The notes beneath the pieces are model-generated. The model had not been told where the DNA came from, did not search any database, and saw nothing but the letters and a program-made list of their open reading frames with translations. From Pelagomonas calceolata (lineage: Eukaryota > Sar > Pelagophyceae > Pelagomonadales > Pelagomonadaceae): 64,000 nucleotides of DNA. The stretch spans positions 3,472,001 through 3,536,000 of the forward strand of contig CAKKNE010000003.1 in assembly GCA_918797485.1 (NCBI GenBank), given 5' to 3'. The position numbers and the translations under genes are program-made. Shown in pieces: positions 4,210 to 48,157 of the stretch; within the stretch, counting starts at the first letter, position 1; each line of letters opens with the position of its first letter.

Positions 4210-4237
4210 TTGCTAGTGTCTTACATGCCGCTAGCAA
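4210..4237 (-). promoter_or_regulatory. CTAGC/TGTAAGACACTAGC promoter element
   Basis: Near-consensus copy in the 363-base gap between the divergent G6PD and plastid-protein genes, 149 and 188 bases from the two start codons. No other feature was seen in the gap. Confidence 0.65.
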
Positions 4238-4424
4238 AATTACGTGCGACGCCCGGCAGCTGTCCACCGAGGGCTCGACGAGGCCTGACGGACGCGTCGC
4301 GGACGGATCCAACCCTCTCCCAACCCGCTCGATTATTCACACATCATCGCGTCAATCGTCGAGCTTTTCGGCCCGGGAGGCAACGTCTGGAGCTACGGAG
4401 CTGCCGAGCAGTGCGTTTGGGAAG

Positions 4425-5244
4425 ATGGCGCGACGACTGATTGTCGCGCTGGCCCTGAGCACCGCGTCGGCCCTCGTGGCACCCGTCCCCCTCGCCTCGA
4501 CGGCAAGGCGGCAGCGGCCCGTCGTCCGGGACCGTGCGGAAAGCAAATATCGGGCGCCCAACGCTAGCTGTTGTCTTCGTGGCTGCAACTGCTCGATGGC
4601 GTGGAGGTTCCAGGCCATCGACGCGCCGTCGTCGCCGCGACCGCGTCACTCACCTATCAAAATCCACGCAGGTCCAGGAGTCCTTCGGCTTTGATTTTGC
4701 GGAGGACCAGGCCGAGAACACGGCCGACGGCATCCTCGGAGAAAGACGCCTCAAGGAGGAATTCATTAGGAGCTACAAGCCGACGGCGACGGTGCTCGAA
4801 GGGAAACCGTACCCGGTCTTCCAGGAGGTCCAGGAGAAGCGCATCCTGAGCGCTACCGTGAACTCCGGGCTGCTGCAGTCTTTGGACAACCTCGGTTTAG
4901 GATTGGGAGACGTCGAAAAATTACTCCCTTTCCTCGACAAGTTCGGCCTCATCGGTTTAGTAAGGAAGAACCTGCCGCTGGCGATCATCGCGACGGGCTA
5001 CCTGCTCATCGAGCCGGCGCCCTTCCTCCTGCCCGTGCTTGGATTATTATTATCCATCCCCACGGCCGCGTGGACGGCGGTCGCCGCCGTGACGACGGGC
5101 GCGGAAATCTACCTCAACGCCTTCGCGTCCTTCGAGGACGCGGGCCTCGTGTCGCTGTTGCTGGCGCCGCTCCTCCTCATCGCGGGCGTGCTCAGCCTCG
5201 TGCCGACGGCGATCGGGGCCATCAAGAGCCTGCCGCCGGTGTAG
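4425..5244 (+). CDS. Plastid-targeted thylakoid-type membrane protein (DUF1118-like)
   Basis: Two exons. Exon 1 starts at the ATG at 4425 and encodes a signal peptide ending in ASALVAP, which resembles the stramenopile ASAFAP plastid-import motif. The mature part is in a different frame, beginning near VQESFGFDFAEDQ (4672) and running to 5244, so an intron must join them. Candidate sites are a GTGCGG donor at 4534 with an acceptor at 4606 (in phase), or an acceptor at 4671; the exact junction is unresolved. The mature protein has EKRILSATVNSGLLQSLDNL followed by helix-rich repeats around LDKFGLIGLV, then three or four hydrophobic segments. The pattern recalls the DUF1118/RIQ thylakoid proteins that affect grana organisation, but this is a low-stringency resemblance. 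Confidence 0.65.
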
Positions 5245-5323
5245 GTCGGATGCGGGGAGTAACGGTCTTAGGCGGTATGTACGTCGAGTCTTCGCATGCG
5301 TGCACCAGTCGCCCGCGGTGGGG

Positions 5324-5404
5324 TTACGGGCGCGGCACCGGTCGCCCGTCGACGACGGGGTTCGTCTTTCGCCGCTGCGTTAGGCCCGCGCGGCAAATCG
5401 CGGC
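5324..5404 (-). pseudogene. Inverted AP2-domain fragment
   Basis: On the minus strand this stretch reads AAICRAGLTQRRKTNP then VVDGRPVPRP. That is clearly the AAIRRAGLEG-RRTNPVVDG-LVP tail of the AP2 family encoded on the plus strand at 5577-5650. The DNA halves match closely over the last 33 bases. It is a degenerate inverted copy with no complete domain. Confidence 0.7.
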
Positions 5405-5839
5405 GTCGTCGTCGCGCCGGACGCGGCGCGCGCGCAGACGGCGACGACGTCCAAGTTCTGGGGCGTGACCTGGGACAAGCCGGCGCGGCGGTGGAAGGCG
5501 CAATACACCGACGCGAACGGCAAGAAACGCCACCTGGGTCTCTTCGACACCCAGGAGCAGGCCGCGCACAGGGTCAACGCGGCTATTCGCAGGGCGGGGC
5601 TCGAAGGCCACCGTCGCACGAACCCGGTCGTCGACGGGCAACTGGTGCCCAAAAAGCGCAAGGCGAATGGCCACGGACCGAAGGCGTTGCGCAAGCGCCG
5701 CCGCGAGGAGGCCGCAGCCGCGCCGCCGCCGCGCGCCCGCCGCCCGCGCCGCGCGGACAACGACGACTCCGAGCCCGACGCCGACGACGACGAGGACCTC
5801 GAGTTGGCGCCGCCCGACGACGAGGACGGCTGGGACTAG
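5384..5839 (+). CDS. AP2-domain protein, 5' end missing or rearranged
   Basis: One AP2/ERF-like DNA-binding domain: SKFWGVTWDKPARRWKAQY, then GKKRHLGLFDTQEQAAHRV. It is followed by a family tail RRTNPVVDGQLVPKK, a basic stretch and an acidic Asp/Glu C-terminus. The frame is open from 5384 but has no ATG before the domain; the first methionine-like codon is GTG inside it. The linker VVVAPDAARAQTATTSKFWGV matches the linker between the two AP2 domains of the paralogue at 11.1 kb, so this gene looks as if it lost its first AP2 domain. An inverted fragment of that domain lies at 5324-5404. It may be a pseudogene or may have an unseen upstream exon. Confidence 0.6.
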   Translation, partial: ARAANRGVVVAPDAARAQTATTSKFWGVTWDKPARRWKAQYTDANGKKRHLGLFDTQEQAAHRVNAAIRRAGLEGHRRTNPVVDGQLVPKKRKANGHGPKALRKRRREEAAAAPPPRARRPRRADNDDSEPDADDDEDLELAPPDDEDGWD

Positions 5840-5882
5840 AACAGCCTAAGAGAACCCCCATCGAAGTATAAACAACAGGACA

Positions 5883-8003
5883 TTAGGAGTACCCGAACGG
5901 ATAGTCCGGCGCCGGCGCCTCCTCCTCCACCTCTTCCACGCGGAGCGCCCCGGGGTCCGTCGCCGCCTTCAACGCTAGCCGGATGGCGCGACTGGCGGCG
6001 CGCTCCGACGCCCGCGCCAACACTTCGATCAGCGCCGCCCGTAGCGACGGCGCGTCGTACAGCGACTGGGCCACGGGCTGCACCTTGCGAGCTGCTCTCG
6101 TAACACTACCGATGTCGACGTCGCCACCCTCACCATCCCCCAACAAAAAGTCTCGAGCAGCTAATAAAGCGGCGGCCGCCGGGGGCGCCTCGCCCTCCTG
6201 GTGGCCATTCAGAAAGTCTGGAGGTTCGGGCAAGTCCAGTCCCGCGGCTGAGGCCACGTCTAAGGCTACACCCACACCCAGATAGTCCAACGCATCGGCT
6301 AGATCATCCACGAGCTTCTCCCGGAGCGGGCCCGCGCTTTCCTCCGTCAATGCTGTGATGAGATAAGCGGCGACGGCGGACGCGTCGTATTCACTGGACG
6401 AAGAAGCTCGGTTCAGCAACGCCTCGAAGCGGCGCCATTGCGGCTTCTGGTCCTTGAACAGGAGGTTCGTGAGGGCTCGTCGCAGTTCGGGAGCCTCGTC
6501 GGTCAGCAGGCGGGCAGCGACGTACGGGTAAGCATCATTAACAATTCGGAACCCAGGATCCACCTGTATAGCGACGCCCTCGAGCACGCCCAAACACCTT
6601 ATAATAGCGACGTAGAACGGCGGCAGCGCGAAGGGGAACGTGTACATGACATCTCCCAGTCGCGAGGCCACGTTTTTTACATTCAATTCACTGACAGGAG
6701 CATCCAAGACGTCCGGCAAGGCGTCCTGCAGGCCGCGCACGATGGGCTTGACGTCCGTGCCCGCCTTGATGAAGCCCATCCTTACATACAAGTCGGCCAG
6801 GGCCTCGAAGTCGCGATTCACGAGATGAACCACAGCCTCGATGATCGAGACCCTTTGACGCTCTTCCAGATAGGACATCATCCCGAAATCCAAGTAGCAC
6901 AACCTGCCATCATCTGTCGCTAATAAGTTGCCGGCGTGCGGGTCGGCGTGGAAGAAGCCGCTATCCAACATCTGCCGCAGACTACACTGTACCAAGGCGT
7001 CTACCAATCTCGTACCAGCTTTATCGTCGCCCGTATACACGGCCAACTCGGCCCCGTCCACCAATCGCGTCCCGTCGACCCACTCCATCGTCAGGACTGT
7101 GGAGGTCGTGAGCTCGTCATATATCTCCGGAACTCGTATCGTATTCTCGTAGCCCTGATATAATTTAGCGAACTGCCTCGCATTTCTCGCTTCGGCGCGG
7201 TAGTCGATCTCGCGGTATATTAATGCTCCAAAATCATCGACCACTGAGACTAGGTCTAGGTCCCTTCCAAACGCGCGCACGAAGAACGACGTGCCGAGCC
7301 GCGCCCACCACCTTAACACGAACAGATCCAACGCGACGACGCGCTCGCAGTCCGGCCGCTGGACTTTAAGCGCGACGACTTTCCCGTTCCTTAATCGAGC
7401 CTTGTAGACCTGACCGATACTTGCAGCAGCTACCGGCTCATCCACGAGCAACGTGAAGACGTCCGTGAAATTCCTTAAACCGAGAGACGCCTCGACCCTC
7501 CGTAAAGCTTCGTCGGTGGGAAAGGCCGGCACGCGGTCCTGGAGCTCTTGGAGTTTCCTGAGATACTCTGCTGGGAGAAGGTCTGGTCTCGAGGCCAATG
7601 CTTGCCCGCCCTTGATGACGGCTGGTCCTAAATTGGAGATGAGCTCCAGCAACTCCGACGCTCGTTGCTCCCTCCTCTGGAGTTCGCAGTTCATGGCCCG
7701 GTCACTGATTATTGAGGCGATAAAGCCGGCCAAAGGGAAAAAAAGTTGCACATTTCGTGTGAGCCATCGTCTCGGTTGTCTTGTTAACAACTTCTGGGCC
7801 TTGTCCGGATCATATCTAATCTCGGCCTCGGCTACCGGGTTCTCCGGTTGTTGGGTGGGGAGGTCCGTGAGCGCCGCGCGGAGCCTCGTCAGCTGGAGTG
7901 AGTCTCGGCCGCTCAAGGGCGGCGGCGGCGCGGCACGGTGGCGCGGCGCGAGGAGCGCTGCGGCTTGTGTGGTGAGGAGCGTGGCGAGTAAGCGGCGCGC
8001 CAT
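5883..8003 (-). CDS. ABC1/UbiB-type atypical kinase
   Basis: 706 residues, ATG at 8003. The N-terminus MARRLLATLLTTQAAALLAP looks like a plastid or mitochondrial targeting sequence. ABC1 hallmarks occur in order: KGGQ (131-134), the Ala-rich loop AAASIGQV (192-199), the catalytic Lys in VALKVQRP (about 213), HADPHAGN (352-359; HADPHPGN is more usual) and DFG (372-374). The ABC1 family is tied to isoprenoid-quinone biosynthesis and lipid homeostasis in mitochondria and to plastoglobules in plastids. The C-terminal 250 residues extend beyond the kinase core, as in plastid ABC1K members. Compartment is inferred. Confidence 0.92.
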   Translation of the reverse strand: MARRLLATLLTTQAAALLAPRHRAAPPPPLSGRDSLQLTRLRAALTDLPTQQPENPVAEAEIRYDPDKAQKLLTRQPRRWLTRNVQLFFPLAGFIASIISDRAMNCELQRREQRASELLELISNLGPAVIKGGQALASRPDLLPAEYLRKLQELQDRVPAFPTDEALRRVEASLGLRNFTDVFTLLVDEPVAAASIGQVYKARLRNGKVVALKVQRPDCERVVALDLFVLRWWARLGTSFFVRAFGRDLDLVSVVDDFGALIYREIDYRAEARNARQFAKLYQGYENTIRVPEIYDELTTSTVLTMEWVDGTRLVDGAELAVYTGDDKAGTRLVDALVQCSLRQMLDSGFFHADPHAGNLLATDDGRLCYLDFGMMSYLEERQRVSIIEAVVHLVNRDFEALADLYVRMGFIKAGTDVKPIVRGLQDALPDVLDAPVSELNVKNVASRLGDVMYTFPFALPPFYVAIIRCLGVLEGVAIQVDPGFRIVNDAYPYVAARLLTDEAPELRRALTNLLFKDQKPQWRRFEALLNRASSSSEYDASAVAAYLITALTEESAGPLREKLVDDLADALDYLGVGVALDVASAAGLDLPEPPDFLNGHQEGEAPPAAAALLAARDFLLGDGEGGDVDIGSVTRAARKVQPVAQSLYDAPSLRAALIEVLARASERAASRAIRLALKAATDPGALRVEEVEEEAPAPDYPFGYS

Positions 8004-8193
8004 CGTCCTCCGCGCGCCCCGCTATAGCAGGTGCTGTCCCTGTGTACTTTGCTTGTGCTTGATGAGAGCTCTTCCAGGCGCTCAGTGCGTAGCGCGCGGC
8101 ACCGGCGGGTACCGAAAGACACTCCGTGCCACTTTTTACGCGCCGGTCGGGTGCGCAGCTGCCAGGGAACCGAGAAGAGCAGGGCTGAGCAAG

Positions 8194-8217
8194 TGCTAGT
8201 ATGTACACGACGCTAGC
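8194..8217 (-). promoter_or_regulatory. CTAGC/TGTAAGACACTAGC promoter element (degenerate)
   Basis: Reads GCTAGCGTCGTGTACATACTAGC on the minus strand apart from flanking bases. It is centred in the 415-base divergent gap, 191 and 202 bases from the ABC1 kinase and PP1-inhibitor ATGs. Nothing else was recognised in the gap. Confidence 0.5.
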
Positions 8218-8418
8218 GGCGTTCGGCCGCGGCTCTTGGCGTTTTAGCCCTTAGGAACGCGCCGAACACGCTTCAGACCTGGGCAATAAACCAAGACGAC
8301 CCGCTGCGCCGTCGAGCAAGTCGCACATATCACCCGCGCGCGCCACCAAACCTCCGGCAGCTTTTTGCCCGCGGCAGCTTTTCCTACACGCCGTGCGCAC
8401 CGGTAAACACCAGCACCG

Positions 8419-8874
8419 ATGGCCGCCCAGCAGCAGCAGCCGCGCGGCATCCTCAAGAACAAGCACGAGGCCGGCAATAGGCCCCACCTCACCTGGGACG
8501 AAGAGACCATCGCGGAACACGACAAGGAGCGAGGCACGCGCATGAAGATCGACGAGCCGGACACGCCCTACGCGCGCTACGACCCGGCCGAGGACCCCGA
8601 CGTCGTCCAAGGGGCTTCGCCGCTGAGCCCGCCGAAGGAGCTCCAGCCCGTCCGGTCGACGTCTCTAGATGATCACTTAGGTGATCTCTCCGAGAAATTA
8701 GCTAGAGCAGCAACCGATTCCGAGAAACCGCGAGCAGCCTTGTTCGTCGAGGAGGAGGAGCGAGACGAAGCGAAGGCCCGAGCCTTCGCTGCCAAAAGAC
8801 AGCAGCACTACAACATGGCGGGACTGCTGGGCAGGAAGTGGGACGAGGAAGACGAGATGGAGGACGACGACTAA
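8419..8874 (+). CDS. Protein phosphatase 1 inhibitor-2 family protein
   Basis: 151 residues. Small, acidic and probably intrinsically disordered regulator of protein phosphatase 1. All family signatures occur in order: RGILKNK (9-15, the KGILKNK site), LTWDEETIAEHDKERG, KIDEPDTPYARYD (the region carrying the GSK3-type Thr-Pro site) and KRQQHYNMAGLL (the HYNE-type helix that covers the PP1 active site in known structures). The C-terminus is a run of Asp and Glu. The ATG at 8419 begins MAAQQQQPRGIL and is the only sensible start. It converges with RTRAF, with 11 bases between stop codons. Confidence 0.92.
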   Translation: MAAQQQQPRGILKNKHEAGNRPHLTWDEETIAEHDKERGTRMKIDEPDTPYARYDPAEDPDVVQGASPLSPPKELQPVRSTSLDDHLGDLSEKLARAATDSEKPRAALFVEEEERDEAKARAFAAKRQQHYNMAGLLGRKWDEEDEMEDDD

Positions 8875-8885
8875 TGACTGTGTTT

Positions 8886-9425
8886 TTATCGACCTACTTT
8901 CCCTAGGGCAGCGTTCGTCTTCGGGTTGGCCACGAAGTTCTGCCCTTTCACGAGCACAGAATTGATGCCGTCCTGGAGCTTGCGCAGGTCCGACACGTAG
9001 AAGAGGCGCAGCGCGTCCTTCGGGTCTCCATTTCCATTCTTCGCCGCGACTCGTGCACAGGCACTCGTGAGGTCGTCGGCGCCCAATGATGCACAGAGCT
9101 TCGACACGCGGCTTTCGTCGACGTCAGCCTGCTGCGGCTTCGCCGCCTCGTCCTCGAGCTCGCATTTGACGGCTTCGTGCAACAACCAGACCAGCGCTTG
9201 CGACGGTTGTAACACGGGGCACTCGAGCTCTTGCAGATAGCTTTGAAAAGCGGCGTCGAACTCGACACCAGCCGTTCTCAAGGGCTTACGCTGCTCGATC
9301 TCCCACAACCGGATCTTCCGGTCTTCCACCCAGCTCACGAGCTTCGCGACGGCGGCGGCGTCGCCCGCGAATGGGAACGGGTACTCGAGCGCGTCCAGTA
9401 ACCGCTGCACGACGGGCGTCGCCAT
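8886..9425 (-). CDS. RTRAF: RTRAF/CGI-99 family RNA transcription, translation and transport factor
   Basis: 179 residues from the ATG at 9425 ([10 protein letters not shown]). The N-terminal LLDALEYP and [19 protein letters not shown] match the family start and its W-EDQKIR-Y-IE motif. The C-terminus [13 protein letters not shown] then [15 protein letters not shown] is almost the diagnostic L-ELQ-KINE / ADPKTD-LGKVGR ending. In animals the family member joins the tRNA ligase complex and RNA-transport granules. This protein is about 65 residues shorter than the human one, mainly through loss of the central region. An open frame continues upstream of the ATG but is Arg/Pro-rich and non-homologous. 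Confidence 0.9.
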
Positions 9426-9680
9426 GAGTGGCGGTTGCGGTCGCGGCGGCGATCGCTGCGCTGCGGCTACGTGGTGTCGCCGCGGCGATAGCGCGCGGTC
9501 TTCGCCTCTGCGCTCGGCGAGGGTGCAAGTGCGGTGCTCGGCGACGGCGCACGAATGCGAGCTCGCTCCGCAAAAAGGCGTGCAGCCGGCGCGCTCGCGG
9601 CGTGGACAGGGATGGTGCACGTGTAGTTACGGCTTTTTGGCCTACCAGCGGCAAAAACTCGTAGCAGGCAGGCAATGTTA

Positions 9681-9706
9681 GCTAGCGGTCAGTAAGACAC
9701 TAGCAA
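9681..9706 (+). promoter_or_regulatory. CTAGC/TGTAAGACACTAGC promoter element
   Basis: Close to consensus (GCTAGCGG, two bases, then AGTAAGACACTAGCAA). It lies in the middle of the 552-base divergent gap between RTRAF and the PH-domain gene, 256 and 272 bases from their ATGs. Confidence 0.65.
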
Positions 9707-9977
9707 CAAGCAGAGCAGCGGCGGCTTGCTCGGCGTGTTGCGGCCTAAACGACAGGCCCACAGCCCCTGACGAAGGCTAAGCATCGCTCTGGTCCGAGCA
9801 GCACGCTGTCGTAGCGCGTAGCGCCGCCAAGGCATCACACCACACCACCCTGCCAAAAACCACTGCCAAAGTGTACGCAGCGCTACGCGGCGGGGCGCCA
9901 GTACTCGAAAAAAAGGCCGTCCTCACACCGCGCGTCGCTGCCAGCCGCAAGAAACCGTTGCCAAAAGACCGCAGAGC

Positions 9978-11069
9978 ATGTTCCACCTCCCCGGACGAGG
10001 TACCACGGCCCTCACCGTCAAAAGCTCACCACCGAAGACCGCGCAAACGGCGACGCGACTCGGTGTCAGGGCGGGCGTCCTCACAAAACGCGACGAGCGC
10101 GGCGCGTGGCAACGCCGGTACTGCGCTCTAGTCCCGCAGACGTTACTATTTTACTATGATGATGAAACGAGTGACGACGCGCGCGGTATTATCGACTTGG
10201 AGTACTACGGCGACGTGCAGATCGTGCGGGGCCGAACGCTACGTCTAGCCACCGCCTCTGACGTTCCACTGCGATCCTTCTTCTTCCAGGCGGAAACGGA
10301 GGAGCAGGCCCAGAAGTGGTGCGAAGCTTTGAGTAGGGAACGGTATTTTGTGGTCGCCGATGAAAGAGATGCGTACAGAGAACTGCAGGGCGAGTTCTCG
10401 ACGACGCGCGCGCAGGACGACGAGTCGTGCTCAAAGATGCGGGAGGCTTCTCAAGAAAGAAATGCGGCGGCTTCGTTATCGGAAAAACGAGCAGCCGACG
10501 CGTTGGAGGTTTTAAGGGATCAGGCCTTGGCCCTCGGTCTCGCGCCGCGTCAGGCGGCTGCGTTAACTACACCAGCAGCCGCAGCACGGGAGGTGGCCCA
10601 CCGGCTCCACTTCTGCGGGCGACGGCGCGAGTCCCTCGAACGGGCGTTGCAGGCGCTCGAGACGTCACAGCCGGAGCCGCCCGATGCCGCGGAAAAGCGT
10701 CAGTCTACCATCGCCGCATTGCGAGCGAAATTAGCTTCACAAAAACAAAAGACGGCCCACGCCTCGACGTCGCGGCTCGCCGCCGACGCGCGGCGCGACG
10801 CGGCTCTCCAGACCGCGCGCGCGGCGCGGGCCGCGGTCGCCGCCGCGGCTTCCAGAAGGTCGCGCGCCGAGCGGAGCGCGGCGGAGCTCGTCGACCAGAA
10901 GCGCGTGCTCGTGAGGGAGGTGCGCGAGCGGCGCGCGCGGCTCGACGACGCGCGGCGCGTGTCGTCGTCGCTGGAACACGCTGCAGATTTGCCGGCCGCC
11001 GTCGCGGGGCTGAGCGTGGACGACGCCGTCGAGCGTCTGAGAAGGGGGTCGGCGCCGATGGTCGGGTAA
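9978..11069 (+). CDS. PH-domain coiled-coil protein
   Basis: 363 residues. A pleckstrin-homology domain spans about 30-125: RAGVLTKRDERGAWQRRYCA, LLFYYDDETSDDARGIIDL, and the C-terminal helix EEQAQKWCEALSRE with its invariant Trp. This predicts phosphoinositide or protein binding at membranes. The rest (about 140-345) is Ala/Arg/Glu-rich helical sequence compatible with coiled coils (SEKRAADALEVLRDQALALG; RAERSAAELVDQKRVLVREV). I do not recognise the full-length family. Its stop is 30 bases from the convergent AP2 gene. Confidence 0.8.
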   Translation: MFHLPGRGTTALTVKSSPPKTAQTATRLGVRAGVLTKRDERGAWQRRYCALVPQTLLFYYDDETSDDARGIIDLEYYGDVQIVRGRTLRLATASDVPLRSFFFQAETEEQAQKWCEALSRERYFVVADERDAYRELQGEFSTTRAQDDESCSKMREASQERNAAASLSEKRAADALEVLRDQALALGLAPRQAAALTTPAAAAREVAHRLHFCGRRRESLERALQALETSQPEPPDAAEKRQSTIAALRAKLASQKQKTAHASTSRLAADARRDAALQTARAARAAVAAAASRRSRAERSAAELVDQKRVLVREVRERRARLDDARRVSSSLEHAADLPAAVAGLSVDDAVERLRRGSAPMVG

Positions 11070-11098
11070 TGTGGTGAGTTGTATGTTCTTACTGATGC

Positions 11099-11943: not shown

Positions 11944-11990
11944 CGCGGCGAGACGCGTACTACCGCAACGACATCTAAATTAACGAGATA

Positions 11991-12578: not shown

Positions 12579-12759
12579 CGCGGCGGCGGCGGCTAGCGCG
12601 CTGCTGCGGCGAGCTGCAATGGGGCGGCGGCGGGCGCTGCTCCGCACACGTTAAGCCCTTGGATCCTTCCGAGGGTGCTAGCGACGAGCCGTGTGGATGC
12701 GTAAATGAACTTAAGCTGGCGTTTTGCGCAGCGATTTTACTCGACAAAAACACAGCTAC

Positions 12760-12787
12760 CTAGCGGCCTGTAAGACACTAGCAAGCC
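12760..12787 (+). promoter_or_regulatory. CTAGC/TGTAAGACACTAGC promoter element (best consensus copy)
   Basis: CTAGCGGC then CTGTAAGACACTAGCAAGC. It sits in the 436-base divergent gap between LSM12 (182 bases) and the p47 homologue (228 bases). Confidence 0.7.
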
Positions 12788-13014
12788 AGCCAAACAGATC
12801 CTTCCGTCCATTTTGTTTTTGAGACTCGTGGCTCGAGCGCTGCGGAGACCCTTCGTTGTTTAAAACTCCGCGCCGCACAACTCAGCCTCCCTGAGGAGCT
12901 CGAAGGTCTCGAGCCTCCCGCGCGCATTCCTGCATCCCGCAACTGCGCCGCATTGCCAGTAGGTCAAAGCCATCCCAGGCTCGCGCGCAAGCCCCCCGCG
13001 AGCCGCCCTACACC

Positions 13015-15178: not shown

Positions 15179-15238
15179 CTTCGCTCGGGGGCAGCCCTAC
15201 GATGCAAAAAAGCCTCAAAAAGCCTCCGCAGGCTAAAT

Positions 15239-15266
15239 ACTAGTGCCTTACGAGACGCTAGCAAGC
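15239..15266 (-). promoter_or_regulatory. CTAGC/TGTAAGACACTAGC promoter element (GGCACTAGT variant)
   Basis: Minus-strand reading GCTAGCGTCT then CGTAAGGCACTAGT. It lies in the 229-base divergent gap, 61 bases from the MYND copy 1 ATG and 142 from the asparaginase-fusion ATG. The GGCACTAGT variant is shared with the copy before MYND copy 2. Confidence 0.6.
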
Positions 15267-18433: not shown

Positions 18434-18457
18434 GCTAGCGTCCTGTAAGACACTAGT
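18434..18457 (+). promoter_or_regulatory. CTAGC/TGTAAGACACTAGC promoter element
   Basis: GCTAGCGT then CCTGTAAGACACTAGT. Lies in the divergent gap between RRP46 (177 bases) and the ankyrin gene (65 bases). Confidence 0.68.
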
Positions 18458-18521
18458 TCCAATTGGTTCGAGACTCATGACCCAACAGCTGATAATGCAT
18501 GGCTGCCCTTCATAATTTATC

Positions 18522-19391
18522 ATGGATTGGTTTGGATTTGACAAAAACTTGCAATCTGCTCGCACTCGTAGCTTAGCGCAAAACTGCAGGGGCCCCATAG
18601 CTCTCCTAGAGGTGCGGCGACTGCTGACCGAAAGTAACGCTTTAGTAGACGGCACGGCCTTATATGGTAGACCGTTGATCAATGCGGTTGAATGCTGTGA
18701 ACCTGAGAGTCTTGAAGTCGCGCGTCTTTTGCTAGATCGCGGCGCGGACGTCGACCTGATTGGCGCAGAAGGCAAGACGGCACTGTATGTTGCGTGCAAA
18801 CAATTTAAGGGTGGTTATGGGAGACGTGCGCCACCACTCGTGGAGCTCCTCCTCTCACGGGGGGCTGATCCCCGTCGGTGGCATAACGGGCGTACGCTGT
18901 TCGGGGTGGCGCTGGAAGCTCGTAACTACGGCGCCGCTCGTTTACTTCTCGCCCACGGCGTGTCCGTCGAGGATCCCGTGAGCCACTACGGTCCAGTACC
19001 GATTCGTCCGCTTTTCCGTTTTTGCGAATCTGACGGACACGAGTCATCTACCTCCCAGAACAATGGCGGCATTGAGCAAGTACGTTTTTTGCTCGCGCAT
19101 GGCGCCGCCTTCGACTTCATTAATTACGATGGTCATTCTGCGCTCACCTTTGTGCGCTCGGGGCACCGGCGACTCCCGAATGGACAATGGCGGGGAGGTA
19201 GGCCCGAGATGAACGCCCTCTTCGACGCGTTCCTGACGCACTACTGGACTCTACGCGTCCGGCTCCGCCTCTTCGGCCGGCGCGCCAGCCACCGGCCGGG
19301 CCCGCAGCGGCTTGTGCTCGGCGACGCCTATCTACCGAACCATATCGGGTCTTTCGTCGTCGGTGACGGCATCATTGTGAAGAAAAAGTAG
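18522..19391 (+). CDS. Ankyrin-repeat protein
   Basis: 289 residues. Ankyrin-type repeats are visible at about 45-90 (RPLINAVECCEPESLEVARL, LLDRGADVDLIGAEGKTALY), 105-150 (PPLVELLLSRGADP, GVALEARNYGAARLLLAHGV) and 180-215 (IEQVRFLLAHGAAF, YDGHSALTF). A basic C-terminal segment (WTLRVRLRLFGRRAS) follows. These are protein-interaction modules; no catalytic domain is present and no specific function can be assigned. A GGCTGCCC element lies 14 bases before the ATG. Confidence 0.8.
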   Translation: MDWFGFDKNLQSARTRSLAQNCRGPIALLEVRRLLTESNALVDGTALYGRPLINAVECCEPESLEVARLLLDRGADVDLIGAEGKTALYVACKQFKGGYGRRAPPLVELLLSRGADPRRWHNGRTLFGVALEARNYGAARLLLAHGVSVEDPVSHYGPVPIRPLFRFCESDGHESSTSQNNGGIEQVRFLLAHGAAFDFINYDGHSALTFVRSGHRRLPNGQWRGGRPEMNALFDAFLTHYWTLRVRLRLFGRRASHRPGPQRLVLGDAYLPNHIGSFVVGDGIIVKKK

Positions 19392-20093: not shown

Positions 20094-20303
20094 CCTGATG
20101 GTTGGTGCTGGACGGCGGGCGCGCGGCGGCTGGCGCGGCGCGGCCGTCGGCTGGTGTGGAGTGGGTCCTGCCTTGTGCGCGGCGCGGCGGCTCGCGGCTG
20201 GCGCAGCGCGTTTGGATTGTAAGAGCGACAGTGAAACGAGTCCCGAGCGAGTAATTGCGCCCTCACAGCAGGCAAATGTAACAATGTTAGGCCGCGGCAG
20301 CTC

Positions 20304-20329
20304 GCTAGTGTGTCTTACAGTCCGCTAGC
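20304..20329 (-). promoter_or_regulatory. CTAGC/TGTAAGACACTAGC promoter element
   Basis: Minus-strand reading GCTAGCGGA then CTGTAAGACACACTAGC, with a two-base CA insertion. It lies in the 350-base divergent gap between TMED (211 bases) and IF-2 (115 bases). Confidence 0.62.
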
Positions 20330-24086: not shown

Positions 24087-24108
24087 GCTAGCGCATCAAC
24101 ATACTAGC
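24087..24108 (+). promoter_or_regulatory. CTAGC/TGTAAGACACTAGC promoter element (weak copy)
   Basis: GCTAGCGCATC then AACATACTAGC. Both ends are kept, the centre is divergent. 79 bases upstream of the MARCH-type gene. Confidence 0.4.
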
Positions 24109-24204
24109 TTTCAACTTCAGGACGTCAGTAAATTATATGTACTTTCTTTACTTCGAGCGGCTCGGGGGGAAACGGGAATGAGGGACGGGGACCGAGCACG
24201 CGAG

Positions 24205-27414: not shown

Positions 27415-27435
27415 AGCTAGCCTGTAAAGACACTA
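27415..27435 (+). promoter_or_regulatory. CTAGC/TGTAAGACACTAGC promoter element (short form)
   Basis: GCTAGCCTGTAAAGACACTAG, missing the GG-variable spacer. It lies 246 bases upstream of the coiled-coil gene in a 338-base gap whose other side is the 3' end of the AIFM2-like gene. Confidence 0.55.
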
Positions 27436-27507
27436 GGAAAATATCGCAGCCACCTGCTGCCCAACAGGGGACAAATGATAAATACAGTATATACACAGGA
27501 GGACCTA

Positions 27508-28687: not shown

Positions 28688-28710
28688 GCTAGCGGCTGTA
28701 AGGCACTAGT
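28688..28710 (+). promoter_or_regulatory. CTAGC/TGTAAGACACTAGC promoter element (GGCACTAGT variant)
   Basis: GCTAGCGG then CTGTAAGGCACTAGT. It lies between the divergent AIFM2-like (149 bases) and MYND copy 2 (75 bases) genes and shares its variant bases with the copy before MYND copy 1. Confidence 0.65.
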
Positions 28711-28784
28711 GTGGGAAGCTTTTGAAGCTTTTCAAGCCTTTTTGCATCGTAGGGCTGCCCCCGAGCGATTTGACCATACACAAG

Positions 28785-37752: not shown

Positions 37753-37754
37753 TG

Positions 37755-37777
37755 GCTAGTGTGTTACAGGCCGCTAG
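37755..37777 (-). promoter_or_regulatory. CTAGC/TGTAAGACACTAGC promoter element
   Basis: Minus-strand reading CTAGCGGC then CTGTAACACACTAGC. It abuts repeat copy B, 188 bases before the ankyrin-DHYC gene. Confidence 0.65.
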
Positions 37778-37964
37778 TTAGCACACGAGCCGCGCAGCGT
37801 TTTACGGGCAAAGGCGTGCGCTATTTGCATAACCGGTGCCTGCTGAACAACCGACAGCGATCACACAGCAGCGATCGGCAGCGAGAAAGCGATAACGCCA
37901 CGCTCGGCGTAATAAAAAACCCATCCAGCCCAGCACCAAAAAAATACAATACAAACGCGCAGCG

Positions 37965-39866
37965 ATGGCCGAGGACCCGCTGACGACGCCCGCGGTCGCC
38001 GGTGAAATCGTCGCTGGCGAGGGCTCCATCATCAACGACGCGCGCGCCGCGGCGCAGTACGGCCGCGCCGACGAGATCGCGGCGTTCCTCGACGACGGCA
38101 AGCTCACGCCGGACGCCAAGGACGAGGACGGCTGCTCGTTATTGCAGTGGGCGGCGATCAACGGGCGAGACAACGTCGTAAGGCTCCTTTTAGAGAGAGG
38201 CGCGGACTGCAACGCCGTCGGGGGCGTTTTGGAGGAGAACGCTCTACAATGGGCCTGCCGGCAGGGGCGGAGCAGCTGCGCCGTGTTGCTCCGAGAAAGC
38301 GGCGGGGACCCGACGCACCGCGGCAAGGAGGGCGGCACGGCCGTGCACCTCTGTTGTCGGTATGGCCAAGTGGCCATCCTAGCTTTCCTCATCGCGCGGG
38401 ACGACGCCCCGCCATCGGTACAACGAGGCCTCGTCGACTTACCAGATGGAAATGGGATGACTCCTTTAATGGTCTGCTGCGAGTGGTACTGGTCGCGGCC
38501 GAAGAAAGCGTTGGATTGTTTGCGGTTGTTACTAGCCTTCGGCGCTTCCGCTACTTTTGCGGATAAACAACAACGGACACCACTCCACGTCGCCGCGAAG
38601 CGAGGCGTGGAAGCCAAAGCTCTGGAATTGCTGATCGAAAAAGGCGCTTCTTGTGAAGCCGAAGACAGTGAGGGCCACACCGCCGCCAAGGTCGCCGAGC
38701 AGGCGGGCCACTCGAGTTGTGCGCGGCACATCCGCACGCTCGCTTCGACATCGTCCAAAAGGCGGCCCTGGACGACGGCGCGGAAAAATGAGGATGTGGA
38801 GGCTCCTCTGGTGGAAAGGATGGCACCCTTGAAACCCTTGCCGTTCGCTGTTGAGTTGAGGAGTGGTCCATTAGCTTGTAGGGACGCTTTGTACGGTCTC
38901 GGGACGCCCTGTATTGTGCTATTGGGCGGGCCCTCGCTCATCGCGAGGTACGGCTGGCACGTGGGGATGGGCTGTTCGGTCGTCAGCGCGTTCTCCTTCG
39001 CGTTTCTCGCTCCCAGAGACGCGCCGCGCTACGGCCACTGCGGCTTCGCGGTCGGGTCGGTCTTGGCCATCGTGCGGTCGTTTTTCCTCGTCGAGGACGT
39101 CGGAATTGGTCTGGTCGTGTTGTACGCCGTGCTTGTATCTTGTTTATTGGGTGCGCTGGGCATGACGGCGCTGTCGGACCCCGGTATGCGGCCGCGTCCC
39201 TTTACGTCGCGTCGATGGCGTGGCGACACCGACGCCACCGGCGCGCCGTCGCGTCGGCTCGCGTCGGCCCCGACGCCATCGACGACGCCATCGCCGCGAC
39301 GGAGCGAGCGTCGGCCGCGACGCCATCGACGCCACGCAGGTGTGGTATGTGCCGACGACGACCGCGCGGCGAAGATCGTCGACCTCGCGCGGCGCGACCG
39401 CTTGAGCGAGAAGACGTTCTGCCCGACGTGCCTCATCCAGCGGCCGGCGCGCGCGAAGCACGACCCGACGCTGAAGCGGTGCGTGCGCCGCTTCGACCAC
39501 TACTGTCCCTTCGTCGCGACGGTCGTCGGCGAGCGGAACTACCGGTACTTTTATGCGTTCTTGGTGTTTTGTGTCTTGGCGATATCCTTACACTTGCTAC
39601 TCGTCCTACCTTTGGTGAGGTTATGTGACGACGTCCAGGGCAAATACGTCTGCCTCTTCCCCGCGAAGAACGCCCCGGTCTTCATCGGCACTTTATTAGC
39701 AATATTGCACGACGTCTGGATCGCCTGCATGCTCATCATGCACTCGTCGCTCGTCTGCACGGACCAGACGACCTACGAGCAAATGCACGGGAAAGAGGGC
39801 GACGAGTGCTCCCAACAAAATTGCCGGAAAGTCCTCTCTCCGGAACCCTTAACAGAAGATTCTTAG
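37965..39866 (+). CDS. Ankyrin-repeat DHYC palmitoyltransferase
   Basis: 633 residues. The N-terminal half has ankyrin repeats (about 45-265: DGCSLLQWAAINGRDNVVRL, NALQWACRQGRSSCAVLL, RTPLHVAAKRGVEAKALELL, EGHTAAKVAEQAGHSSCARH). Transmembrane helices flank a zinc-binding Cys-rich domain: FCPTCLIQRPARAKH, CVRRFDHYCPFVATVVGERN. The catalytic tetrapeptide is DHYC, not DHHC, as in yeast Akr1, which is active and shares this ankyrin architecture. It should S-palmitoylate proteins at Golgi or endosomal membranes. Residues about 408-465 are Arg/Ser/Thr low complexity encoded by a CGTCGATGGCGTC-type repeat and might be an unspliced intron. Its stop overlaps the next gene's stop by three bases. Confidence 0.85.
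   Translation: MAEDPLTTPAVAGEIVAGEGSIINDARAAAQYGRADEIAAFLDDGKLTPDAKDEDGCSLLQWAAINGRDNVVRLLLERGADCNAVGGVLEENALQWACRQGRSSCAVLLRESGGDPTHRGKEGGTAVHLCCRYGQVAILAFLIARDDAPPSVQRGLVDLPDGNGMTPLMVCCEWYWSRPKKALDCLRLLLAFGASATFADKQQRTPLHVAAKRGVEAKALELLIEKGASCEAEDSEGHTAAKVAEQAGHSSCARHIRTLASTSSKRRPWTTARKNEDVEAPLVERMAPLKPLPFAVELRSGPLACRDALYGLGTPCIVLLGGPSLIARYGWHVGMGCSVVSAFSFAFLAPRDAPRYGHCGFAVGSVLAIVRSFFLVEDVGIGLVVLYAVLVSCLLGALGMTALSDPGMRPRPFTSRRWRGDTDATGAPSRRLASAPTPSTTPSPRRSERRPRRHRRHAGVVCADDDRAAKIVDLARRDRLSEKTFCPTCLIQRPARAKHDPTLKRCVRRFDHYCPFVATVVGERNYRYFYAFLVFCVLAISLHLLLVLPLVRLCDDVQGKYVCLFPAKNAPVFIGTLLAILHDVWIACMLIMHSSLVCTDQTTYEQMHGKEGDECSQQNCRKVLSPEPLTEDS
39195..39350 (+). repeat. GACGCCATCGACGCC-type minisatellite inside the DHYC gene
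   Basis: Multiple degenerate units such as GACGCCATCGACG and GCGTCGGCCCCGACGCCATC on both orientations. Similar units recur at 32784, 32867 and about 40428-40480. Encodes low-complexity protein or may be intronic. Confidence 0.5.
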
Positions 39867-40956: not shown

Positions 40957-41366
40957 CGTCGTCGCGTTTTTCGTATCGCGTTGCTGGCGTCGAGCTGTGC
41001 TCTTTGCTGAGCAAGCGTGTGTGCCACGGGGGTGCTTAGAGGCCCGCTGCGGCACTGCAATTGGCTCCGCCGTCACAGCTCCTCAGCTCCTCAAGCCCTC
41101 CCGGACCTCCTTCATCCGTCCCTCAGAAGCCGTCAGCTCACCGAGCACTCTGTCTCGAACGGGTTGACGCGTGCAGAGGGAGAGTGAGGGAGGGCTTCGT
41201 GGGAGAGGCTCCTCTCTGCCAAGGCCCCGCAAAAACGCCCAGTCCGCGGCCGTCGCGGCCGTACGGATCAGTAGAATTGGTCAGAGGCCATCAAAGATCA
41301 CAAAACGCCAATTGCCAATCGCTCCGTGGCACCACACAGCGCTAAACAAGCTGTGCAGCACTGCAC
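40957..41366. other. Divergent intergenic region
   Basis: 410 bases between bS21 and the biotin ligase. I see no recurrent element, repeat or gene. Confidence 0.45.
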
Positions 41367-42140: not shown

Positions 42141-42569
42141 GTAAGTGTGTTTGACTACAACGGCTACGCGATTTTACATGCCCCCCGGTCGTCGCGCGAG
42201 CTCGCCCAAGAGCACGGGCCGCCTGCAAAACGGACACGGGGCTCGATCACGGCAGTATGAAGTGCCAGTGCAGTCTAGGGTGCGATTTACGCACGGCGTT
42301 CTTTACGTGAGAAACGGCCCAGCGTCATTTACGCCGTAATTTACGCGTAATTTACGCGTGCATTTATTTATAAAACCCGCACACACGCAGCCAGAGCCCC
42401 TAAACAAGGCCTTGGTGGCCACGCAGCTCAATAGCAGCACGAGCACGGCGCATAAGCGCACACCTAGAGTGCACACCTTGCTCGCAACAGCATGCAACTA
42501 GCAATTGGCTCGGCTCTGACAACGTTTGGGGCAGCCACACTCTGCGAGCTGCTGATCGCGAGCTAGAGT

Positions 42570-43748
42570 CTTAGAGCTTGACGTACTAGCCCACACTGCC
42601 TACTAGCTCCCACGCCGGCACGCGAGGCACAATACTGCCTCATGTGCCGGCGTGGGCGGTGCGGCTGCCTGGGTGCCCCGTAAGGGCTGCGCCGCCGTCC
42701 GTGCCCCAAGGGCTGATGGGGGCAGGCTTTTTTCCCCCGGGCGATGCGACGGCGGTGCCGTGCGGCACTGCCCCATAAGCACGCAACCTCCGTACGTCGC
42801 CGCACGACGTCGTTGCTCAGCGCTTTTGCGATATGACGTTCGCCCAGAACCCACGAACGAGTGACCAACAGGGTTTTGTAGTGCGATGAGGTTTGATTGT
42901 AAACGCGGGCGTCAAACGAGGTGCGCTCGACAAGGTGTAGACGAATAGCGAAATGGGCTCCACGACCAAAACCTGTCAGCACGGTCCTCCGCGGGGTTCG
43001 TGGGAGCTGCGCGGACCGCTTGGTTGCTCGGGAAAACCCTCTATCTGTCACTTTTTCTCCTAAAAATGTTAATTCCTATTATTACTAAACGGGTATTCTT
43101 TGGGACAGACTCCGGCGAGCCATTTGTTACCCTTAGCCTACGAAGGCACAAAACCCCGTCTATGGGCTATCGACACAGACCAGAAGGCTGCCCTGAGGCC
43201 GTGGGAGCGGCCGAAGAGTCGGGGTTTCTGCTCCCGGCGCGGCACCGCGCGCTGCGACGTTTTAAGTGCAAAAACACACTTTTCTATTACCATGGAGCCT
43301 AATTGACGAGTCGAGGCAACCTGGTGGTAAGTGCCGAGGCCGCACTTCATCCGTAGGTACGCCAATTGCTGCCCATTCACCGTCGCGTACGACACCGTGT
43401 CGTCGGCGACGTGCCGCAGACGGTCGGCATGAGGTGTTGGGGCCTCAACGAAGGTTGGCGCCTCGGGGCACATCCATGAGACGGCCTCGGAGCGCGGGCA
43501 TGCGCCGCGGACGGCCCATCTCGCGAAACGGGAGAGTATCGCTTCTGAGAGCGTGTGGTTTCAGGGTGCTCATGCTCGTCAATGCGGCCGCGGACTGCAA
43601 CGCGGCAGCCCGCGCCATGGTCGGGACCACGGACGGGCCCGCACCGCCAATCCGCGCTCCAATCGACCGAATAGAGGCCGAGTATGCCCCCTGAGAGCAC
43701 GCCGGCGTCATGAGAGCAGCTAGTGTGGGCTAGTACGTCAAGCTTAGA
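42570..43748. repeat. Inner inverted-repeat pair (nested element)
   Basis: 42570-42597 and the complement of 43722-43748 share CTTGACGTACTAGCCCACAC with only about three differences in 28 bases. They bound a 1.18 kb segment nested within the larger element. Confidence 0.7.
42609..42656. repeat. Perfect 13-base hairpin
   Basis: CCCACGCCGGCAC (42609-42621) pairs with GTGCCGGCGTGGG (42644-42656) around a 22-base loop, just inside the left inner inverted repeat. Confidence 0.75.
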
Positions 43749-44024
43749 GGGCCGCTAGCGCCGGCTTCGGGAAGAGCCCTGGAAGGACTTTTGGATACCT
43801 CCTTTTTTACGCCGTTTTTTACGTGGGATCTCCTGTAGCGGTGCTTTACGTGTAACTTACGCGTTTTTTCCGCGTAAATCGCACCCTAGAGTGCAGTAGA
43901 TAAAGTGTAGATAAAGTAGTAGATATGGCAGTATGCCAGTAGAGTGTTGTAGTGCAGTCTAGTACTTCTAGGGGCTAGTCGCTGTGCTCGGAGTTGACGA
44001 TAGTTCATACAACAGAAATATTAA

Positions 44025-46193
44025 TCAGAGCCCGTCGTCGGCGAAGTCCGCGCCCGAGTCGTAGGCCGTGTCGCGCACGTCGGGGAAGTCGGCGAGCGTT
44101 TGGGGTGTGGCCCACGCCAGCGAGCCTCCGGTCCTATCCGCCGAGCGGTCGACGTGCAACTGCGCGCAGGCGTCCTGCAGGGCCCGCTCGACGTGCACTC
44201 GAGTCCGCAGCATGGCCAGCTTCTGGTACGTCGCGACGCGGCCTTCGCGGCAATCGCTCCTTAATGAAGCAGATGTCGGGTTCGAGAACAACCGAAAGCC
44301 ATCAGACCATCGTAGGCGAGGCGTGATCGTCACGCACCCTTTGGGCGACTGCGTGAACACTCGACCGCTCCAACCGGGAGTGGCGTCGACGTCGCGCAGA
44401 AACTCGAGCTTCGCGGCCATGTCTTTCCTAAGGAACAACTCCAAGGCAGCCAGAGCGTAGCCGCCGCGCCAGGACGCCTCGCCCACGGAACCCCAGCGAT
44501 TCGGCTCTCCCGCATCTCCATGCGCGTGGTAGAACATCGGCTGCATGTGTGGATTGACTTGCGACGCGACCACAAATCTCGCGTTGAAGGCCTCCCTCAA
44601 AGCTGCTGCCGGGATGTCATGTGCTATACTTCCATCGATATACAACTCGGAACCGGCTTGGGGCCGTAACTCGCCAGTAGACGGGTCCTTCTCCAGCAGA
44701 ATTTGCGGCGGTAGGAGTCGAGGTACCGCGGAAGTAGCGACGATGGCACTGATGATGACGACGTGCGGCGACGTCTTATGCGTGAGTAAAACGGGAGGCG
44801 CCTTCTTGCCCGTCGCACACACGGTAATCGCCAGGGCCCGTCCGCTCCGTTCAAACGCTTCGAGGAACGTCATATTCTGAATAGCAGCATCGTTCGCGAA
44901 CCACCGCGCGATGTCCATCCACCTTTCACTATCATAACAAGCACCGTGCTTGTAGAGTCGTTTCAAGCACTCCCAGGGCGTGCTCTCGAAGCATTTCAAG
45001 TTCGACGAGAGTGCAGAATCGTCATACAAGTCGCGGGCGAGTTCCGAGTCATTTCGACAGCAGCAAAACGACGCCACAATCGAACCAGCCGACGTGCCGC
45101 AGATGGCGTCCGGGAGCAAGCGCGCGTCGTGTAAGGCTCTTACCACTCCAAAATGATAAGTTCCGAGGGCGCCGCCACCGCTCAACGCCAACGCGGTGGC
45201 GCCGTACGCCTCTCTGGCCACGCCGAAGAGACTGCGACAGACCTTCGTGCGCTCGTCGTCGGAGCAGGTCGACGAGAGCCAGTCGACGCTCGCGGCGACC
45301 TGCGATGGAGGCGCGTGGACGCTCGCGACGACGCATCGCCGCGGCCGCGCGCTCTCTGACACGCAGCAACGGCCCCGACGCGGTCCGAATCGGCTCAAAA
45401 TCGCAAAAGAGACCACCCACTTCATGCTGAGATGGAGACGAGTCGCGTCGACGACGTCGACGCATGATTAGGGACGCTGACTACAAACTTCGTCGACGAA
45501 GTCGGTGACCACAATTTTGGGGGCCCCCGCGTAGGACACCGCGAAGAGTTCCGGCGCCATGATGCCGCCGACGTTCGGTCGCGAGCAGAGTCGCAGCGTG
45601 TCTGCTACTCCTCTCCAATCATTTTGTGATCGGGCGGTTCTTAGTCTCGCTCGGAGCCTCCGGACGAACGGCCAGTTGTATCTCGTGCTTCTTAGGTCCG
45701 CCTGCCACAGGGCGACTCCTCGCGACGCATCTAATGCGCGCGCACAGGCCAACCACTGGGCGTAGTCGTCGGCTCTTCTCAATGCACTTCTCAGTCGTCT
45801 GTGGGTCGGTGAAGCCACTGCGAGCTCCAATGCTGCCACTAGTGTCCTCAGTAGAAAGTAGAGGATGAGTTCGACCCCCACGAGAGCGTAGACCAGAACT
45901 AAGAGAGGCCACCTTAAAACCAAATGAGATAAACGATTCAACCTTGGCAGCAACGTAAGTAAAAAGACCCCGAGCCCGTAGCGCGACTGCTCCACGATGG
46001 ACACGAACAGCTTCGTCAGGGCCCAGCCCGCCGCGCAGTTCGTGACGTAAGTGAACGTGGCGACCCAGCGGTTCCGGTGGATGTGCGGCAGGGGGCTCGG
46101 CGAGCGGTCGTCGCAGAAGTCGTCCAAGGAACCGCTCGAGCGGTGGCGCCTTCGCAGCGTCTGGCGCGGCGGGGACGCGTCGCGGCCGGCCAT
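44025..46193 (-). CDS. SDP1/TGL-type triacylglycerol lipase (patatin family), two exons
   Basis: Exon 1 is 46193-45489, the intron 45300-45488 (189 bases, GTTTGT donor, TCGCAG acceptor, phase 0), and exon 2 ends at 44025: 659 residues. Exon 1 has two hydrophobic segments and the DUF3336 region (YAQWLACARALDAS, YNWPFVRRLRARLR, RPNVGGIMAPELF). Exon 2 has the patatin domain: oxyanion loop SGGGALGTYHFGV, nucleophile GTSAG and the Asp of DGSIAHDIP forming the Ser-Asp dyad. The splice rejoins FVDEV, as in plant SDP1. Such enzymes start storage-lipid breakdown on lipid droplets. Read without splicing the gene would look like two. Confidence 0.9.
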
Positions 46194-46370
46194 CGCTTCG
46201 CTTTGCTGTGGCGTCGACGGCGTGCTGGGGCTGCTGTGTGTGCTTGGCTGCACGCTTTACTTCGCGAAGCCGTGCTTGGGAGTTGAGCGCTGATGTGGAG
46301 TACCACAAATCGCACGCACACGCGTGGACGGCGCAGTTATAGGCTCGTTTTGCGCCCGGTTTGCCGGCTA

Positions 46371-46398
46371 GCTAGCGACCTGTAACATACTAGCAAGC
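46371..46398 (+). promoter_or_regulatory. CTAGC/TGTAAGACACTAGC promoter element
   Basis: GCTAGCGA then CCTGTAACATACTAGCAAGC. It lies in the 473-base divergent gap between the lipase (178 bases) and PDH E2 (269 bases). Confidence 0.62.
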
Positions 46399-46666
46399 AC
46401 GCGCGAGCCGGCCGACGCCGTTTGTTTCGTAGTAGCTGTACGTGGAGGACCCGCCGAGAGTCCTGCAATGCGGGTTCCTTACACGACCGAAAAACCCGCT
46501 ATTTAGGTGGTCTTCCAAACCACACGATAAAAGCCGCGGGAGACGGCGTCCTCGTTGCACGTGGCGCTTGCCAGTTGCGACAACAACTCATTCGCTGCGC
46601 GGCCACGCCGCTCGGCCCGCAAAAACCACGTCTGCGCCGTAAAAACGCTCCAGTAGCCGCGGAAGG

Positions 46667-47953
46667 ATGCTCGCGGCGCGCCTCCTGCGCGGCGCGCGTG
46701 GAGCACTGCGGAGTGCGACGCCCGTCGCCAAGCGCCGCCTCGCCCTCCCGCCGCACAATGTGGTAAGCGTCCCCGCGCTCTCCCCAACAATGGAGACCGG
46801 GACGATCGCGCGGTGGCACGTCGCGGAAGGCGACGCCTTCGGCGCCGGCGATAGCATAGCGGAGGTCGAGACGGACAAGGCGTCCATGGAGTGGGAGATG
46901 CAGGACGATGGGGTCGTGGCGAAGCATTTGGTGGCGCCGGGCACCGAGGTGGCCGTAGGAACGCCGGCCGTGGTCCTGGTCGAGGATGCGGCGGACGTGG
47001 GCGCCTTCGCGGACTTCGAGGCTCCCGCCGGCGCTGTACCCGCGCCGGCGCCGGCCGCCGCGCCGGAGCCGGCGCCAGCACCGGCCGCCGTGCCGGCCGC
47101 CGCCCCCGTCGTCCCGGTAGCAGCGCCGGCGCCGGCCGCGCCGTCAGGCGGACGCGTCGCCGCGTCGCCGCTCGCCCGCAAGGAGGCGCAGGCCAAGGGC
47201 GTCGACCTGTCGCGCATCGTCGGCACCGGCCCCGGCGGCCGCGTCACCTTCGACGACGTTCACAATGCCCCGGCCCAGGCCGGCGTCGCCCAAGCGCACG
47301 CGTCGGACTACGCCATCTCGCCGGAAGCCGCTTATCTAGCCGCGAAGCTCGCCCACTCGGCCCAGACGGCGCCGCACTACTACCTGACGATGGACATACA
47401 AGTGGGGAAAGCACTAAAGCTGTTGGAGGAGCTCAACGCGGGCGAAGACGCGAAGATCGGCCTCGGCGACCTATTCGTGAAGGCGGCGGCGAATGCGGCG
47501 GTGGCCGTTCCCGACGTGAACGCGTCGTGGCTCGATGGCGTCGTGAGGCAGTACCAGCGCGTGGACGTCAACTTAGTCGTGGGCGTCGGTGAGGGTCTGC
47601 GGGCGCCGGTCCTGATTGGTGTCGAAGATATGTCGCTGAAGGATGTCGCTACTGCCTCTGCGACGGCGATGGAGGATGAATCGCCCTACATGGCTGGTAC
47701 GATGACGGTACAAAACTTAGGCGCGTTCGGTTTGAGCAGCGCGGCGCCCGTCGTGCACACGCCGCAGGCCTGTTGCCTGGCGCTCGGGGCCGTCGTCGAT
47801 GCCGCGGCGCTCGTCGACGGGAAGGTCGTGTCGCAGCCCAAGCTCGCGGCGACGCTCGCGGCGGACCACCGCGTCGTCGACGGCGCGGTCGGCGCCGCGT
47901 GGCTGGCGGCGCTGCGGGCGCTCGTCGAGGCGCCGGCCAAATTGCTCCTTTAG
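46667..47953 (+). CDS. Pyruvate dehydrogenase E2 (dihydrolipoamide acetyltransferase)
   Basis: 428 residues. The presequence MLAARLLRGARGALRSATPV looks mitochondrial. One lipoyl domain (about 30-110) carries the lipoylated Lys in ETDKASMEWEM. An Ala/Pro linker and the peripheral E1/E3-binding domain (ASPLARKEAQAKGVDLSRIV, GTGPGGRVTFDDV) follow. The catalytic domain contains GTMTVQNLGAFGLSS, HTPQACCLALG and the active-site DHRVVDGAVGA. The product transfers acetyl groups to CoA. Pyruvate specificity over other 2-oxoacids is inferred from the linker and binding-domain pattern. Plastid targeting is less likely, as there is no ASAF-P motif. Confidence 0.92.
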   Translation: MLAARLLRGARGALRSATPVAKRRLALPPHNVVSVPALSPTMETGTIARWHVAEGDAFGAGDSIAEVETDKASMEWEMQDDGVVAKHLVAPGTEVAVGTPAVVLVEDAADVGAFADFEAPAGAVPAPAPAAAPEPAPAPAAVPAAAPVVPVAAPAPAAPSGGRVAASPLARKEAQAKGVDLSRIVGTGPGGRVTFDDVHNAPAQAGVAQAHASDYAISPEAAYLAAKLAHSAQTAPHYYLTMDIQVGKALKLLEELNAGEDAKIGLGDLFVKAAANAAVAVPDVNASWLDGVVRQYQRVDVNLVVGVGEGLRAPVLIGVEDMSLKDVATASATAMEDESPYMAGTMTVQNLGAFGLSSAAPVVHTPQACCLALGAVVDAAALVDGKVVSQPKLAATLAADHRVVDGAVGAAWLAALRALVEAPAKLLL

Positions 47954-48127
47954 AGCGCGTTCCTATCCTATAAGTCATCGTGATCATACTTGAGTCTTAG
48001 GCGAGTTGCTTGGTCGTGCCCTGTCCAGTCGCCGCACGAGCTCGGAGGAAAACTCAAGGAGGAACCGTAGTAGAAGGGAGGTATCTTGGAGCCTCTCGTG
48101 ATGATGGAACTCTCGGATGATGGACGC

Positions 48128-48157
48128 GCTAGCCTGTCTTACAGGTAAGACACTAGC
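48128..48157 (+). promoter_or_regulatory. CTAGC/TGTAAGACACTAGC promoter element with internal palindrome
   Basis: GCTAGCCTGTCTTACAG then GTAAGACACTAGC. The core TGTCTTACAG / GTAAGACA is duplicated in inverted form. It is 205 bases upstream of the GST gene, in a 408-base gap after PDH E2. Confidence 0.6.

Follow-up and report, generated by a model that had tools for sequence, protein, structure and literature searches.

Does a word of about 26 bases that recurs in front of genes in one stretch of the Pelagomonas calceolata genome mark bidirectional promoters, or does it serve promoters of this alga more generally? The question is raised by the window analysed here, a stretch of 64,000 bases (positions 3,472,001–3,536,000 of contig 3), in which an earlier note had listed 13 copies and taken them for a possible pelagophyte bidirectional-promoter mark. 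With a probability of roughly 0.62, the element is bound by a protein resembling general regulatory factors, which would act at about half of the protein-gene promoters. The attribution to a pelagophyte was right as to the source organism. P. calceolata is reported among the most abundant ocean eukaryotes, and its published RCC100 assembly comprises 32.4 Mb with 63% GC, distributed over six chromosomes and the plastid and mitochondrial genomes, with 16,667 genes and 0.45 intron per gene (PMC9481584). The genome searched here contained 32,445,274 bases in 8 contigs.

Exact copies of GTAAGACACTAGC occur 1,741 times genome-wide (872 forward and 869 reverse), with no match to the reversed pattern. 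Zero matches were also returned by the reversed controls of CTAGCG-N(0-25)-GTAAGACACTAG (2,125 matches genome-wide) and of the GTAACACACTAG variant with spacers of 2–4 (269), as well as by the control of CTAGCGNNCTGTAAGACACTAG (304 + 331). For an unbiased count of degenerate copies, 20 stretches of 10 kb were taken from the six chromosomes according to a fixed grid. An initial one-block expectation-maximization matrix drifted into noise, and its place was taken by a two-block model with free spacer, fitted to the window and the 200 kb of grid samples. This model registered 64 sites in 264 kb, as against 2 in reversed sequence and 1 in a Markov control. The grid alone contributed 51 of them, which corresponds to ~8,300 per genome (Poisson range ~6,000–11,000), and two further grid stretches (15 kb) gave three more. 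Roughly half of the sampled gene promoters carry one copy. The most over-represented 8-mers of promoter gaps in a k-mer analysis also come from the element, and in the window CTGTAAGACACTAGC with up to 3 mismatches allowed was matched 9 times against 0.7 expected, a number reached in none of 100 shuffles. Giant viruses and other viral contigs were rejected as carriers of the element, there being no exact match among the 2.9 million viral contigs of IMG/VR.

Coding stretches were delineated ab initio by a self-trained codon-context model, which missed at least one gene (18516–19391), and many genes of the window were confirmed with Pfam. Coding DNA accounts for 74% of the bases, yet none of the 64 sites is coding: 57 lie in promoter-bearing gaps, one in a convergent gap (1 of 50 such gaps) and the rest at sample edges. 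Equal frequency in coding or 3' DNA, an outcome considered by the earlier note, is not what we observe, and its assertion that the element is promoter-associated in both orientations holds, as in those cases where one gene only can be served the motif lies on the strand of that gene 15 times and on the opposite strand 14 times. The bidirectional mark, however, did not survive, because same-strand gaps (29 sites in 28 of 61, a class that includes introns) contain the element about as frequently as divergent ones (28 sites in 28 of 51; Fisher p = 0.45). Among same-strand gaps of at least 250 bp it is present in 28 of 43, and in none of the 18 shorter ones, which probably include introns. The element looks bidirectional because compact genomes hold many divergent pairs, where one copy can serve both sides. 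Two or more copies share a gap only once, against 10–12 expected. The distance to the start codon has a median of 205 bp and a 5–95% range of 90–362 bp. In both data sets, the gene side of the element has T-tracts within ~45 bp, which may be a hint of a nucleosome-depleted region. A peak of AGCA at 130–160 bp, seen in the discovery set and considered as a start-site signature, was dropped after the second set did not reproduce it sharply. As regards an association with tRNA genes, ARAGORN in its bacterial code setting detected zero tRNAs in the samples.

The consensus consists of GCTAGCG(G/T), a spacer and GTAAGACACTAGCAA, and is usually 22–26 bases long. Summed from the two-block model, the right block holds ~20 bits and the left one ~10. 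Twenty loci were retrieved with the right block only, and every one of them has the left CTAGC block too (in locus L007 as CTAGCT instead of CTAGCG), so that the pair seems to function as one unit. Counted between CTAGCG and GTAAG, the spacer of the first 100 exact matches from the genome has 4 bases in 59, 3 in 25, 2 in 10 and 0 in 3, while lengths of 5, 6 and 10 were registered once each; a spacer of 1 was found in two cases genome-wide versus 49 for spacer 0. Spacer bases show a preference of their own, (G/T)C(C/A)T. These lengths correct the gap of two or three bases originally suggested. The ends, thought to form an inverted repeat as expected for a dimer, do not form a perfect one: GCTAGCG on the left faces the reverse complement of GCTAGTG on the right, with a consistent one-base difference. 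Given these unequal half-sites and information contents, an inner GTAAGA present on one side only and a spacing of 0, 2, 3 or 4, a simple symmetric homodimer site is not supported. A rare variant with a palindrome-like insert (CTGTACAG or CTGTCTTACAG) right before GTAAGACACTAG was encountered in the window at 48128–48159, at L032:3965–3996 and at G000:C1:1866234.

Comparison with relatives became possible through a specificity control, in which the two-block pattern was run on 257 billion bases of bacterial and archaeal genomes. Only 6 matches were found, and five of them lie in marine contigs of metagenome-assembled genomes containing Pelagomonas-like DNA with 82–96% identity to the P. calceolata genome. 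Such DNA, present in L041, L042 (~2043–3500), L044, L045 (3551–3889) and L046 (5370–7515) under the GTDB labels Spirochaeta, proteobacterium and Desulfobacteraceae, is evidently contamination, and the contigs at 82–84% identity suggest a distinct Pelagomonas lineage. The sixth match (L043, 40% GC) is probably due to chance. The five environmental sites were ascertained by exact match on the environmental side, whereas the other sites of L044 were not. In this contig (8 kb, 83–94% identity) each of the four reference sites is matched by a counterpart in the corresponding gap, one of these counterparts being weak (score 17.5), and an additional site at 461–485 is without clear partner in the reference. 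In six aligned pairs the element is 85–100% identical, while the 60-base flanks vary between 89% identity and what random sequences would give; in L041 the element is almost the sole alignable part of its gap. At L044:5352 the element is inverted relative to C6:2,239,185, and a 14-base anchor ~30–40 bp off stays collinear. Nearly all compared copies persist in the same promoters of diverged relatives. The same contig L044 contains at 299–455 a stretch of ~156 bases with ~40 copies at 80–88% identity across the P. calceolata genome, possibly an introner or a miniature inverted-repeat transposable element.

Freedom of orientation, a single copy in each promoter, absence from coding and, with one site excepted, convergent DNA, exchange of orientation and spacer in evolution, and persistence amid diverging flanks are the reasons to consider the element a protein-bound promoter site. 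One abundant sequence-specific nuclear DNA-binding protein, or a fixed protein pair, would contact the two unequal blocks, GCTAGCG(G/T) and GTAAGACACTAGCAA, over a short spacer (2–4 bases, rarely 0), and one copy in either orientation, ~200 bp from the start codon, would serve the adjoining gene or genes. The bound protein would then open or position promoter chromatin, with transcription starting on whichever side has a gene. Its role, we infer, would be the definition or opening of promoters and not the control of one particular set of genes. Two points weigh against this assumption. A simple model does not account for a spacer that may be 0, 2, 3 or 4 but not 1, and promoters of essential genes such as PNPase belong to the approximately half that do without the element.

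The closest analogues may be the sites of the yeast factors Reb1, Abf1 and Rap1, which are located in promoter gaps, are orientation-free, serve one or both neighbours and often lie near T-tracts; Abf1, moreover, reads two blocks across a spacer. The algal element shares these features, but differs in sequence, exceeds the yeast sites in length (~30 bits) and belongs to a remote lineage. In Drosophila, Motif 1 with M1BP and DRE with DREF likewise represent one long non-TATA word in promoters of broadly expressed genes. Motif 1, however, is directional and close to the start site, unlike the algal element, which is free of strand preference and lies ~200 bp from ATG. ZNF143/THAP11 (SBS) of mammalian promoters also recognize a long motif that lies near the start of numerous broadly expressed genes, divergent pairs among them. 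By inspection that motif is unrelated in sequence to the algal one, which occupies about half of the sampled promoters (for the mammalian element see also PMC11118474). Introner-length introns, reported in the pelagophyte lineage (PMC9481584), are repeated many times in the same lineage as well, but they are introns of ~210 bp, whereas the element is a promoter word of 22–26 bp without shared flanks.

Among other explanations, an ordinary site for a regulatory transcription factor governing a single programme of great extent (related to growth, light or the cell cycle) deserves the most attention, though we consider it rather unlikely. A gene-set-specific regulator is compatible with the large element-free half of promoters and with the translation and metabolism genes found among the neighbours. 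However, the neighbourhood is functionally mixed (ankyrin, DHHC, RINGv, patatin and GST genes), and ~8,000 copies for 16,667 genes together with the one-copy rule would be unusual for a regulon. Still somewhat less likely is a boundary, insulator or replication-origin element placed in promoter gaps incidentally. It would be orientation-free, single in each gap and situated between adjacent genes, as observed, yet convergent gaps separate genes too and are almost devoid of copies, and the distance from start codons is consistent.

Location in promoters with a T-tract on the gene side might also be expected of a core promoter element that lies at the start site or close to it and, like TATA or an initiator, is directional. 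Balanced strands, the widely spread distances to ATG and the single copy serving both sides of divergent gaps make this improbable. Even less credit can be given to an origin from mobile elements, for instance the introners of this lineage, whose tips, footprints or remnants the copies would be, in spite of many near-identical dispersed copies and ends resembling a short inverted repeat. The shared sequence stops at the element, with near-zero information outside and different flanks in the 20 loci; coding DNA and short same-strand gaps are free of copies, and the same promoters are occupied in diverged relatives. The transposon-tip origin, which the earlier note had named as a possible refutation, was therefore rejected. 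A role in RNA, as a splice signal or a hairpin in 5' leaders, was conceivable from the GTAAG contained in the element and from the partial pairing of its ends. It was rejected as extremely improbable because the two orientations are equally common and the C-A mismatch of the potential stem is kept in most copies (left C 0.93, right A 0.96); no Rfam family was found within the window either.

In the window, the model at a score of at least 14 recovers precisely the 13 copies of the original list, each in its place and none inside coding sequence according to the gene calls; an extra weak site at 42562 scored 10. The distribution into ten divergent and three single-gene placements also stands, nine of the former coming from the gene caller and the tenth, 18434, being counted because the ankyrin gene 18516–19391 (+) was confirmed by Pfam. 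With neighbours named by Pfam, the divergent copies are those at 4210–4235 (− strand, spacer 4, GCTAGCGGCATGTAAGACACTAGCAA, score 39.4) between G6PD (−) and a + gene; 8193–8217 (−, degenerate right half TGTACATACTAG, 22.7) between an ABC1-kinase gene (−) and a + gene; 9681–9706 (+, spacer 4, 39.4) between RLL-domain (−) and PH-domain (+) genes; 12759–12784 (+, spacer 4, 36.3) between LSM12-like AD-domain (−) and UBX/SEP (+) genes; 15237–15262 (−, spacer 4, 31.9) between MYND-TPR (−) and asparaginase (+) genes; 18434–18459 (+, spacer 4, 30.5) between an RNase PH-type exosome gene (−) and the ankyrin gene; 20302–20329 (−, right half with two extra bases GTAAGACACACTAGC, 23.9) between EMP24 (−) and IF-2 (+) genes; 28688–28712 (+, spacer 3, 28.5) between Pyr_redox_2 (−) and MYND-TPR (+) genes; 37753–37778 (−, spacer 4, GTAACACACTAG variant, 33.2) between a − gene without Pfam match and an ankyrin-DHHC gene (+); and 46371–46396 (+, spacer 4, 34.7) between DUF3336/patatin (−) and PDH E2 (+) genes. 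Single genes adjoin the copies at 24087–24110 (+, variant right half ATCAACATACTAG, 20.9; upstream of a RINGv gene, −), 27416–27439 (+, short left half GCTAGCCTGTAAAGACACTAG, 27.6; upstream of a − gene without Pfam match) and 48128–48159 (+, with inserted inverted piece GCTAGCCTGTCTTACAGGTAAGACACTAGC, 24.6; upstream of a GST gene, +). The neighbours had been described as housekeeping, which is correct for G6PD, the LSM12-like anticodon-binding-domain protein, exosome-type RNase PH, IF-2 and PDH E2, but not for the whole set, since ankyrin, DHHC, RINGv, patatin and MYND-TPR genes are there too. Promoters of PNPase (57382) and of the histidine-phosphatase/PGM-like gene (34764) lack the element, as had been noticed; the histone gene named alongside them was not located. 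The part of the window from 48160 to 64000 (16 kb with several promoters) contains zero elements.

Promoter gaps are enriched in a second motif, GGGC(A/T)GCC(C), which was seen in the window at 1039, 32387, 32420, 49970, 50127 and 57052, as well as in L021–L040. In the discovery set GGGCWGCCC was present in 24 of 37 element-free promoter gaps versus 10 of 53 with the element (p = 1.7e-5), while the second set, small and biased, gave no support (6 of 23 with the element versus 2 of 8 without), so that as a mark of element-free promoters it is a lead only. Same-strand gaps also contain a repeated word GCGTCGATGGCGT / ACGCCATCGACGCG, partly in tandem (window 39209–39332 and 40466; L033:900–1050).

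Searches of an open library with the exact strings and for pelagophyte promoter elements found no description of the element, nor, among the papers covered, of any other promoter element of pelagophytes, and a term search of the main text of PMC9481584 gave no trace of such a motif. A word so long and common may serve as an affinity bait for finding its factor, as a marker for annotating promoters and start sites, and as a part of expression vectors. It is tempting, although distinctly speculative, to suppose that in a stramenopile class promoters are defined mainly by a single lineage-specific bipartite word of ~30 bits, which a dedicated factor of an undescribed type would read in either direction at half of the promoters, and that another motif, possibly GGGCWGCCC, would mark the rest. 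If a general-regulatory-factor-like protein does bind the element, Pelagomonas would represent a well-defined case of a lineage in which half of the promoters came to use one new factor.

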